This document shows positions 40,993 to 43,840 of a DNA stretch of 50,616 bases, one piece after another. The notes beneath the pieces were generated by a model. It saw nothing but the letters and a program-made list of their open reading frames with translations. It did not search any database and was not told the DNA's origin. The stretch comes from an uncultured Acidimicrobiales bacterium. GTDB lineage: Bacteria > Actinomycetota > Acidimicrobiia > Acidimicrobiales > SHLQ01. The stretch is taken from positions 1-50,616 of the forward strand of contig CALLAA010000132.1 of NCBI GenBank assembly GCA_938002955.1, given 5' to 3'. The position numbers were made by a program, and so were the translations under genes. Position 1 is the stretch's first letter. Each line of letters begins with the position of its first letter.

Positions 40993-41769
40993 CTACCGGG
41001 CGGTGTAGCCAGCGTCGACGTGAACGATCTCGCCGGTCATGTAGCTGGCTTCGTCGGATGCGAGAAAGACGACCACTCGAGCGATCTCGATCGGGTCGGC
41101 CAGGCGCTTCATTGGAATGGTGGCGTCGGCCATCGCCTGAAGGTCGGCTTCGGTCGGCGTCGTCTCGCGCTGCGAAGACAGCATCGGTGTGCGGACTTCG
41201 CCAGGAGCCACCGCATTTACCCGGATGCCCTGCTCGACATGATCGAGCGCCAACGCCCTGGTCAGCTGATGCACGGCACCCTTCGACACGCAGTAAGCGG
41301 TCGACCCGGCCGATCCAACACCACCCCAAATCGACCCGAAGTTCACAATGGCGCCCGAGCGAGCTTTGGCCATATGTCGGATTGCGGCCCGGCACAAATA
41401 GAACATGCCGTTCACATTGACCGACATGACCCGGTCCCAGTCTTCGTCACTGGTGCCGAGCGAGTCGGCCCGGTGAATCGTGCCGGCAGCGTTGACGAGC
41501 ACGTCGATCCGACCGTGCCGCTCGACGATCGAATCGATCGTGGCGGTGCAAAACGCAGAATCCCGAACATCGCCGACGTACGCTTCGGCGGCGGGAAGCG
41601 ACTCGGCCACACCGTGCACGGATGGCGCGACGTCGATCAGGGCAACGGTTGCCCCTCGCTCGGCGAACAGGCGTGCCGTCGCTTCCCCCATTCCCGACGC
41701 TGCGCCGGTGACCGCAACGACGGTTCCGTTCTCGACACGTCCGGTCGACATCCCCTCTTCGTTACTCAT
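40993..41769 (-). CDS. SDR-family oxidoreductase
   Basis: 258 residues. Classical short-chain dehydrogenase: VAVTGAASGMGEATARLFAERG (TGxxxGxG), Asp in LIDVAP favouring NAD, VNAAG in place of NNAG, catalytic Ser in IVNFGSIWGG and YxxxK in AYCVSKGAVH, then NAVAPGEVRTPML. Substrate unknown. The start overlaps the stop of the AhpD-type selenoprotein gene by eight bases (Met7 at 41751 is an alternative), so the two are coupled. Confidence 0.92.
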   Translation of the reverse strand: MSNEEGMSTGRVENGTVVAVTGAASGMGEATARLFAERGATVALIDVAPSVHGVAESLPAAEAYVGDVRDSAFCTATIDSIVERHGRIDVLVNAAGTIHRADSLGTSDEDWDRVMSVNVNGMFYLCRAAIRHMAKARSGAIVNFGSIWGGVGSAGSTAYCVSKGAVHQLTRALALDHVEQGIRVNAVAPGEVRTPMLSSQRETTPTEADLQAMADATIPMKRLADPIEIARVVVFLASDEASYMTGEIVHVDAGYTAR

Positions 41770-42343
41770 CGGGAATCCAACTTTCGGTTTGCACGCCGAG
41801 CCCATCGGCGATCCGGTTGACGTAGGCGTAGTACCCAATGACCTCGGTGATGTCGAGAATGTCCCGGTCGGTGAATCCTTCCGAACGCAGCGCTTCGACA
41901 TCGCCCACCACCATGTCGCCCGGCGTGTGGGTCAGCTTCACCGAGTACTCGAGCATCGCTCGACGTTTCGACGAGACCCCTGCTGTTCGCCAGTCGGCTC
42001 CGATCTCAGCGAACAACGAGTCATCTTTCAGCAACCGGCGCAGACCGCGCCCGTGGTGCACCAGTCAATAGTGACAACGGTTCTCGAGCGACACGACATA
42101 GGCGATCATTTCGCGCTCGACTTTGCGAAGTGTCTTGGTGCCCGTCATGGCCGAGATGTACAGCGCATTGTGGGCTGCGAGCCCGGCGGGGTTTAGCGAG
42201 TGGATCGCCATGATGTTGTCGACTTTGCCGTATGCCTTGTCGACGACCGCCTCGTATTGGTCGTCGAGTCCGGCGGTACTCGCCCAGGCCTCGTCGGGAA
42301 CGATGTCGATAAACGAGCGGCTGCGATCGAGGTGTTCGTCCAT
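41762..42343 (-). CDS. AhpD-family peroxidase-related selenoprotein (in-frame UGA read as Sec)
   Basis: One 193-residue frame interrupted only by TGA at 42065-42067. Before it: EREMIAYVVSLENRCHY; after it: LVHHGRGLRRLLKDDSL. In AhpD-like carboxymuconolactone-decarboxylase-fold proteins this place reads CxxC-xxx-H, so the UGA replaces the second redox cysteine, giving C90-x-x-U93 with His97. The rest is intact on both sides (MLEYSVKLTHTPGDM; DILDITEVIGYYAYVNRIADGLGV), with no frameshift and normal codon use, unlike a pseudogene. A SECIS-like hairpin follows the UGA. The likely role is peroxide or organic peroxide reduction, or another thiol-redox reaction. AhpD-like selenoproteins with CxxU were predicted from marine metagenomes (recalled). 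Standard calling would give two fragments of 92 and 99 residues. Confidence 0.88.
42030..42067 (-). promoter_or_regulatory. Bacterial SECIS-like hairpin directly after the UGA
   Basis: Immediately 3' of the UGA the mRNA forms a GGCGC/GCGCC stem closing a GGUCU loop. The loop covers bases +19 to +23 after the UGA, the same loop and the same distance as in the E. coli fdhF SECIS (recalled sequence). SelB contacts this loop. The bulged U of fdhF is not evident; a G may bulge at that level. Confidence 0.8.
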
Positions 42344-42367
42344 CCGATGTTTCTACCGCGAACTGCC

Positions 42368-42491
42368 GGGGCCTGTCCCCATCGACCGTGGGGCCTGTCC
42401 CCATTTCGCGCACTGGCGCCTGATTTGTCGCCATTTTCGTTGTCGGTCGACCAGCGGGGCCTGTCCCCATCATCCCATGGGGCCTGTCCCC
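42368..42491. repeat. Four copies of GGGGCCTGTCCCC in two pairs
   Basis: 13-mers at 42368-42380, 42390-42402, 42456-42468 and 42479-42491, each followed by AT. Copies within a pair are 22-23 bases apart. They fill the region between the divergent starts of the selenoprotein gene and trmL. Nearly palindromic (GGGG-cCTGt-CCCC with one mismatch) and sharing the GGG-N-CTG-N-CCC layout of the repeats near 16.0 and 47.1 kb. Confidence 0.93.
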
Positions 42492-42524
42492 ATTTGGCTG
42501 CGAGAGGCTATGGTCGCCGTCGAC

Positions 42525-43037
42525 ATGCACGTTGTTCTCGTCCATCGGGAGATAGCGCCGAACACCGGCAACATCATTCGACTTTGCGCCAACGCCGGAG
42601 CGCACCTGCATCTCGTCGAACCGCTTGGGTTCACCCTCGACGACAAGCTGCTCCGGCGCGGAGGTCTCGACTATCACGAGCTCGCAACGCTCACCGTTCA
42701 CCCAGACTTCGCGGCAGCCATGTCAGCCGTCGATGGCCACCGGATGTTTACCTTTGCTTCCGCAAGCACTCGACGCTACGACCAGGTTGCCTTCGCCGAC
42801 GACGACGTACTGATCTTCGGAGCCGAGCGCTCGGGCCTGCCTGCCGATGTCCTCGATGCAGTCCCGCAGTCGAACCGTTTGACGATACCCATGCGACCTG
42901 GCAATCGAAGCCTGAACCTTGCGAATGCAGTTTCGGTCGTGGTGTACGAGGCGTGGCGACAATCGGGCTTCGGCGGTGCCGACACAACGGGCGCGTCGAC
43001 GAGCGAAACCCCAGGAGCCGGTCCATTCGACTCCTAA
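42525..43037 (+). CDS. trmL: tRNA (cytidine(34)-2'-O)-methyltransferase
   Basis: 170 residues of the SPOUT family, methylating the ribose of the wobble base in certain tRNA-Leu. MHVVLVHREIAPNTGNIIRLCANAG, HLHLVEPLGFTLDDKLLRRGGLDYHEL, LIFGAERSGLP (GxExxGLP) and IPMRPGNRSLNLANAVSVVVYE (knot motif) are all present. Start set by comparison with E. coli TrmL; an in-frame ATG 15 bases upstream (42510) is equally possible, with an AGAGG very close to it. The C terminus is a short low-complexity tail. Confidence 0.93.
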   Translation: MHVVLVHREIAPNTGNIIRLCANAGAHLHLVEPLGFTLDDKLLRRGGLDYHELATLTVHPDFAAAMSAVDGHRMFTFASASTRRYDQVAFADDDVLIFGAERSGLPADVLDAVPQSNRLTIPMRPGNRSLNLANAVSVVVYEAWRQSGFGGADTTGASTSETPGAGPFDS

Positions 43038-43105: not shown

Positions 43106-43840
43106 TTATTTGATGTTCATGCCTTGGCTTTCGAGGAAGGAGCGCATGTGTGGGCGGCTCTCTTTGCCGAGCAACGACGACATGTCAGCCGACCATGTTC
43201 GGTCGACCTTTCCGCCCGTCCGTTCGAGGTAGTACTCGCGCATGTGTTCGTCGTATGACTCGATGCCGGCCACATCGTTCGTCTCGTCGTACGTTTCCTC
43301 TTTGAGCGTTACCGACAGCGGAAGGCGCGGCTTCAGAGCTGGGTCCTGATCGGGCCAACCAAGGCAAAGCCCAAAGAGCGGCACCACCTGCTCAGGCAGA
43401 TCGAGCAGCTCGGTCATTTGCGCAGGGTCATTGCGGATGCCGCCGATGTAGCAAATTCCGAGGCCCACCGACTCGGCTGCCACAACGGCGTTCTGCGCAG
43501 CGATCGCCGTGTCGGTTGCCGCGATGATGAAGTGTTCGGTGACCCCACCGTGGAAGTCTCCCCCAGCCATCTCGCAGGCGACCGACGAGCGATGCAGGTC
43601 GGCGCACCACACAAAGAACGCCCCTGCGGTCTCGACGTAGGTCTGCCCACCAGCAAGCTCCGCGATTGCCGAGCGCGTCTCGGGGTTCCGGACCCGGATC
43701 ACCGTGGTGCCCTGAAGGTTCGATGAGGTCGCCGCGGCGAGGCCAGCACCGATGATCGATTCGACGAGCTCGTCATCGACCGGCTGATCGGTGAACTTTC
43801 GAATCGAACGGTGACTCTTCAACAGGTTGATGACATCCAT
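43106..43840 (-). CDS. Nitroreductase-family flavoprotein (NfsA-like)
   Basis: 244 residues. FMN-binding start LLKSHRSIRKFTDQPVDDELVESIIGAGLAAATSSNLQG, a middle part AQNAVVAAESVGLGICYIGGIRNDP, and GLCLGWPDQDPALKPRLPLSV as in the NfsA/Frp group of NADPH-dependent oxygen-insensitive nitroreductases. The C-terminal part (YDEHMREYYLERTGGKVDRTW) is the usual NfsA extension. Natural substrate unknown, perhaps quinones or flavins. Stands alone; converges with trmL. Confidence 0.9.
   Translation of the reverse strand: MDVINLLKSHRSIRKFTDQPVDDELVESIIGAGLAAATSSNLQGTTVIRVRNPETRSAIAELAGGQTYVETAGAFFVWCADLHRSSVACEMAGGDFHGGVTEHFIIAATDTAIAAQNAVVAAESVGLGICYIGGIRNDPAQMTELLDLPEQVVPLFGLCLGWPDQDPALKPRLPLSVTLKEETYDETNDVAGIESYDEHMREYYLERTGGKVDRTWSADMSSLLGKESRPHMRSFLESQGMNIK

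Follow-up and report, generated by a model that had tools for sequence, protein, structure and literature searches.

Does a TGA triplet that separates two short frames on a contig of an uncultured Acidimicrobiales bacterium (CALLAA010000132.1; assembly GCA_938002955.1) end a gene, or is it a codon within one? In the window, by which we mean the whole stretch of 50,616 nucleotides (nt) that was analysed, a minus-strand frame opens at ATG 42343, runs for 92 codons to a TGA at 42067–42065 and continues in frame to a TAA at 41764–41762. The initial annotation had described two contiguous minus-strand frames split only by this TGA, and its coordinates and residues proved exact: the component frames lie at 42065–42343 (92 amino acids (aa)) and 41762–42061 (99 aa from an internal GTG), with only the TGA between them. 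Reading through it yields a protein of 193 aa (41762–42343, minus strand) with an ATG start, a TAA stop and a single in-frame UGA, carrying the motif ENRCHY-U93-LVHH97, that is, C90-H-Y-U93-L-V-H-H97. The UGA thus occupies the second Cys of a CxxC-xxx-H motif, exactly as had been claimed from the translation.

On sequence evidence, this locus very probably encodes one AhpD-like thiol/selenol oxidoreductase in which UGA93 specifies selenocysteine (Sec) under the guidance of a hairpin, and in which Sec93 and Cys90 carry out the redox chemistry. A seemingly broken gene would then be a whole selenoenzyme. The UGA and its conservation, the hairpin, the Sec machinery and the layout of the active site were all established at the level of sequence, and are described below.

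The protein belongs to a described selenoprotein family

With Cys written for Sec, the joined protein matches the family model TIGR01926 (peroxid_rel) at 5.1e-38, scoring 130.6 bits where the cut-off is 81.8, which bears out the earlier proposal that the two frames together make a full AhpD/peroxidase-related protein. It also exceeds the ahpD_dom cut-off and scores 36.9 against the Pfam CMD model PF02627 (cut-off 23). We take TIGR01926 and COG2128 to cover the same proteins. Membership of NF041238 (AhpD_rel_CFYUT), likewise an AhpD-related CxxU selenoprotein family, was rejected because the joined protein, at 34.4 bits, stays below that model’s cut-off of 175.

Selenoproteins of this kind have been reported several times. 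A 2005 Sargasso Sea set includes 27 AhpD-like CXXU sequences and has bacterial-SECIS-like stem–loops past the UGA of its new selenoproteins (PMC1088965), a 2006 survey lists two AhpD-like proteins under COG2128 and 12 selenoprotein families for Actinobacteria as a phylum (PMC1794560), a 2008 Global Ocean Sampling (GOS) study counts 299 ‘AhpD-like 1’ CxxU sequences (PMC2398784), and a 2026 review places ‘AhpD-like protein’ with CxxU under TIGR01926 (PMC13188914). The window protein has the same family model, the same motif and Sec in the second position, with no difference in kind; it is therefore a member of a family already described, not a new kind of selenoprotein. The observation and the selenoprotein reading of the initial annotation both stand, but it missed the SECIS element and the known status of the family. 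Compared with the earlier sets, the sequences studied here form one clade in genomes of Acidimicrobiia and near actinobacteria. What is new is this placement in genomes, a clade that is all Sec with no Cys form in the genomes searched, and a constant GGUCU loop matching that of fdhF. No paper that the literature search listed for this class has ‘selenoprotein’ or ‘selenocysteine’ in its title or abstract, and the Sec trait seems little described for the class in the literature searched.

The UGA is conserved across the clade

Within the family of the window’s organism, a match of any kind to the protein was found in 13 of 19 genomes, and 10 of the 19, the window’s own genome included, hold a close orthologue with one in-frame TGA (66–99% identity). 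The TGA falls at the same codon in all ten aligned family orthologues; one further family locus (L036) is a distant match of 25% identity with one TGA and no motif shown. A scan of named genomes with two peptide patterns, both of which left out the UGA residue, gave 73 loci. In a sample of 296 genomes from the class, 97 had a match at 1e-20; at least one match bore a TGA in 83 of them, where class matches without a fetched locus were reported only as having one TGA and the column was confirmed for just 18, and the remaining 14 had stop-free matches only. Stop-free matches were at most 43% identical in the class sample, and at most 40% identical in 396 genomes sampled from the phylum.

Pooling the 10 family loci, the 73 named-genome loci less 8 same-contig duplicates, and 29 class loci gave 104 loci, and removal of 4 identical proteins left 100 distinct proteins, 99 with TGA and 1 with Cys at the Sec93 column. 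We set aside four TGA-bearing sequences from Chloroflexota and Planctomycetota (L104, L105, L108 and L109) together with the Cys-bearing one from Fodinibius (L110; 60 residues matched). The 95 close orthologues that remain are at least 55% identical to the window protein (55–100%) and no two of them are identical over 350 nt around the TGA, although two (L098 and L106) share one assembly. Codon 93 (42065–42067, minus strand) is TGA in every one of the 95, and is therefore never TAA or TAG; Cys90, the first Cys of the CxxU motif (42074–42076, minus strand), is likewise kept in 95/95. The claim that a stop codon would hardly land by chance on this catalytic position is upheld by these two counts, 10/10 in the family and 95/95 among distinct close orthologues. 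No Cys form of the protein was seen in the window’s clade in the genomes searched.

The class also has TIGR01926-like proteins that are less closely related; of 20 such places fetched, 18 have TGA at the Sec93 position and 2 have TGT or TGC. Motif reading of 38 loci left 5 without a motif by the pattern used (L027, L028, L029, L036 and L159), and the match at L035 is a neighbouring TGA orthologue and not the paralogue for which that locus was fetched. Sequence matches in the PDB include 2pfx, 3c1l and others. Cys aligns with the UGA column in 2pfx and 3c1l, the two structures whose alignments were examined, and in Cys paralogues, one of them from the window’s own genome; the predicted alignment of Cys with the UGA was thus found. 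In a tree built from 66 selected rows, of which 59 are Sec and 7 Cys, the window’s clade comprises 33 rows, all Sec, with support 88/97 (not starred). The Sec label requires three changes across the whole tree; we do not read a number of Sec gains from it because its Cys rows are few and some sit on very long branches.

A SECIS-type hairpin is frozen into the coding sequence

Downstream of the UGA lies a SECIS-type hairpin (42036–42052, minus strand; nt 16–32 counted from the U of UGA), with a stem formed by pairs 17–21/27–31 and an apical GGUCU loop at nt 22–26 (42042–42046, minus strand). The loop starts 18 nt past the UGA, inside the coding sequence, and reads GGTCT in 95/95 orthologues. 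Of 90 distinct relatives, 69 form one more pair, 16/32; the window has G/G there and no pair.

The loop nucleotides fall within codons 100 (Gly) and 101 (Leu), and codon use around them is nearly invariant: Gly100 is GGT in 95/95, Leu101 is CTG in 94/95 and Arg99 is CGC in 91/94. At the other three Gly columns with at least 95% identity, GGT is used in 10/92, 37/93 and 8/94 sequences. The other nine Leu columns pass the same identity threshold; in seven the commonest codon accounts for less than 52%, and the remaining two have CTC in 73/93 (column 163) and 54/94 (column 182). In the stem, nt 18 is the last base of codon 98 and nt 30 that of codon 102; standard pairing between them is kept in 89 of the 90 distinct sequences through five pair types (GC 65, GU 9, AU 7, CG 7 and UA 1). 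On alignment A2, whose 20 rows were picked for diversity, covariation was 0.209 against 0.062 in shuffles that take no account of relatedness, a value reached by none of 500; cells changed on both sides numbered 7 against 1.5, and the counts of pairs with two-sided change and of further pair types were each reached by 26 of the 500. The 16–32 pair fails in 9 of the 20 rows.

Published bacterial SECIS criteria, as given in a review, are a loop of 3–9 nt, a stem of 4–16 bp, G in the first two loop positions, a spacing of 16–37 nt and a minimum free energy of −7.5 kcal/mol or below (PMC13188914). The window’s hairpin has a 5-nt loop beginning with G, a 5-bp stem and 18-nt spacing, and its 21-nt core folds at −11.4 kcal/mol, within the published limit. 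It shows no excess stability over shuffles in context (z = 0.62 for 77 nt, −0.61 for 45 nt and −1.80 for the 21-nt core), and the Escherichia coli fdhF stretch is likewise no more stable than its shuffles (z = −0.71). In both elements GGUCU occupies nt 22–26, counted from the U of UGA, and GC comes next; E. coli fdhF (NC_000913) differs in having an A between the 5′ GC and the loop. The fdhF SECIS also has a bulged U17, to which the unbroken 17–21/27–31 stem of the window has no counterpart.

A scan of positions 41700–42600 against Rfam returned no match. A covariance model applied to the window found the selenoprotein site at E = 1e-13, the next hit being at 0.33. Across the genome no second such element emerged: the gene itself scored E = 1e-11 and the next candidate 1.9, with 150 of 4678 first-look candidates scored, and the exact pattern TGA-N18-GGTCTGC occurred at 6 places, compared with 4 when the control was the reversed pattern. 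The 95 orthologues offer a clean natural data set for a SECIS element that lies within a coding sequence and has an fdhF-like GGUCU loop.

The genome encodes the selenocysteine machinery

The initial annotation implied that the organism makes Sec and called for a search for selA, selB, selC and selD; all four were located in the genome, each over its cut-off. The tRNA-Sec, on contig C48, scores 64.5 bits (cut-off 47) and is called SeC with anticodon tca by ARAGORN. The genes selA (386.8 bits) and selB (278.7 bits) are adjacent on contig C145 and have PF03841 and SelB-wing_3 domains. The selD match (263.3 bits) is fused behind a Pyr_redox_2 domain; the product, a 728-aa fusion of Ndh-SelD type (L016:1405–3591, minus strand), has a CGGC motif, which agrees with the CxxC that Ndh-SelD fusions carry according to the GOS study (PMC2398784). 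Loose matches to tRNA-Sec, selB and selD occur in all 14 control genomes, so only matches over the cut-off count; these number 5 for tRNA-Sec, 1 for selA, 2 for selB and 2 for selD among the 14.

Among relatives, selA is present in 18 of 19 family genomes. The Sec trait is frequent in the class: 201 of the 296 sampled genomes have selA at E ≤ 1e-50 (200 over cut-off). Of the 83 genomes that have a TGA-bearing match, 77 carry selA, as do 124 of the 213 others (Fisher p = 1e-9, not corrected for relatedness); the six TGA-bearing genomes with no selA match are 63–84% complete. Because 124 of the 201 selA-bearing genomes lack a TGA-bearing match, the selenoprotein gene alone does not explain the machinery.

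Other fates of the UGA

Four other accounts of the UGA can be weighed against decoding as Sec. The first is that much of the product carries Cys or another residue at this position and Sec only partly, depending on selenium supply. Some systems are known to misinsert Cys at UGA codons meant for Sec, and such a mixture is compatible with the sequence; conservation of the SECIS element argues, however, that Sec is the selected product, and we consider a largely mixed product unlikely.

Alternatively, translation might stop at the UGA and reinitiate nearby, making two proteins. In the window a GTG two codons past the stop (codon 95) opens the 99-aa frame, and 54 of the 95 orthologues have an ATG, GTG or TTG within 12 codons, with GTG at codon 94 in 35. 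But 41 of the 95 have no such start codon within that distance, and only 13 have a GTG at codon 95. All 95 orthologues have TGA as the stop, division at this point would cut through the active site, and the frozen hairpin would be left unexplained. We regard two separate products as very unlikely.

A pseudogene or an assembly error, that is, a nonsense change in, or a misread TGC or TGT of, an ordinary CxxC AhpD gene, is more improbable again. Cys homologues do carry TGC or TGT at the place of codon 93, and resequencing to TGC/TGT had been named as a finding that would overturn the selenoprotein reading. Against this, the same TGA recurs in 95/95 distinct orthologues from many assemblies, a pattern that excludes a sequencing error or private nonsense mutation. 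Moreover, pooled pN/pS over pairs of the ten family orthologues is 0.31 upstream of the TGA and 0.32 downstream, so the part behind the ‘stop’ is under as much purifying selection as the part before it. If the whole genome read UGA as another residue, such as Trp or Gly, the codon would also lie in frame within a conserved gene, but the probability of such a reassignment is negligible given that TGA terminates 64 of 94 complete orthologues and 2 of 7 window genes examined, that homologues have Cys at the site and that the genome holds the full Sec machinery.

Active site and proposed mechanism

Decoding of UGA93 as Sec would place the residue in an AhpD-like active site. The layout E78-x11-C90-H-Y-U93-x3-H97 fits the AhpD proton relay E-x11-C-x-[HY]-[CU]-x3-H, and E78, C90, Y92 and H97 are each conserved in 95/95. 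In a structural study, the relay of Mycobacterium tuberculosis AhpD consists of Glu118, Cys130, His132, Cys133 and His137, that of Pseudomonas aeruginosa PA0269 consists of Glu36, Cys48, Tyr50, Cys51 and His55, and the peroxidase activity of PA0269 is weak (PMC3141380). By position, Glu78, Cys90, Tyr92, Sec93 and His97 are equivalent to Glu118, Cys130, His132, Cys133 and His137 of the M. tuberculosis protein; PA0269 shares the spacing, and its Tyr50 corresponds to Tyr92. The window protein differs from both in having Sec for the second Cys and in belonging to another subfamily (TIGR01926).

An AlphaFold2 model, built with Cys for Sec from 23 alignment rows, has a mean pLDDT of 83.2, with the 10-residue blocks between 61 and 170 at 90 or above, and is predicted to be all-helical save for short bridges near residues 34–42. 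A helix spanning residues 74–88 is followed by Cys90 and then by a helix spanning 91–105 that carries residue 93. This modelled helix pair around Cys90 and residue 93 fits the two-helix catalytic motif described in the structural study (PMC3141380).

We propose that UGA codon 93 would be decoded as Sec by SelB and tRNA-Sec(UCA), guided by the GGUCU-loop hairpin. In AhpD the second Cys is the attacking residue. Here, the Sec93 selenolate would most likely attack a peroxide or disulfide, Cys90 would most likely resolve the resulting selenenic acid or mixed selenosulfide, and the Cys90–Sec93 bond would most likely be re-reduced by a cellular thiol system. In this scheme we infer that Sec is inserted in the cell and that the protein acts as a peroxidase or on disulfides, and likewise infer its reductant and its substrate.

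Genomic context

A short-chain dehydrogenase (SDR) gene lies directly downstream (40993–41769, minus strand; start picked by position). Its coupling to the end of the selenoprotein gene, noted before, is plausible because the possible ATG at 41769 overlaps the TAA stop. An SDR like this one directly follows the gene in 9 of the 95 orthologues, all from the window’s family (9 of its 10), and was not found behind the other 85, for two of which (L065 and L100) only 37 and 0 nt could be searched; the span was 300 nt for the ten family loci and, apart from those two, between 467 and about 900 nt elsewhere. Of the 68 loci compared, the window’s near relatives included, 15 have SDR-like frames in the vicinity of the gene, 11 frames on the opposite strand and 4 on the same strand.

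Upstream, the family scan identified a nitroreductase-family gene (43106–43840, minus strand), separated from the selenoprotein gene in the window by a SpoU-family methylase gene (42510–43037, plus strand) and short repeats. In 6 of the 68 loci, a relative of this nitroreductase is found immediately upstream in the same orientation, at a median distance of 57 nt. The stretch from the selenoprotein start to the SpoU-family gene holds four exact copies of ATGGGGACAGGCCCC (42368–42493, minus strand), a copy number reached by none of 100 shuffles. The nine proteins scanned, which are neighbours of the gene or parts of the Sec machinery, include no ahpC.

Comparison of the 68 loci revealed no conserved gene context beyond the window’s family and, because the neighbours differ in other relatives, context gives no firm substrate. 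Just downstream on the opposite strand, a short frame occurs in 27 loci and a long frame in 25 (for example, L107, L058, L086 and L079); by look, we take these to be the swivel and catalytic parts of AcnX. On the same strand upstream, an aminotransferase-like frame was recognized by look in 9 loci and a sulfotransferase-like frame in 9.

If Sec has been retained in the clade and no Cys version survives, the reaction may need a selenolate. We put forward, tentatively and at less than an even chance, that the clade’s enzyme is Sec-dependent, was kept through the diversification of Acidimicrobiia and may act with a neighbouring nitroreductase and SDR in the window’s genus. If so, the enzyme would be one reason why these actinobacteria retain the Sec machinery.

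Other Sec-containing forms

Two further Sec forms were seen during the comparison. A second TIGR01926-like group has the motif CxYU-xxxHLxDLR (L161–L174, L179 and L180) and includes genomes of about 1 Mb from family f30 (L165, L166, L170 and L179). Its sequence past the UGA is different; several members have GACCTC-loop-GAGGTC there, as judged by eye and not by folding. A third form, CHYU-MMAHGAACRLR, is represented by two near-identical copies (L175 and L176) in one genome, G143, beside a close orthologue of the window gene.
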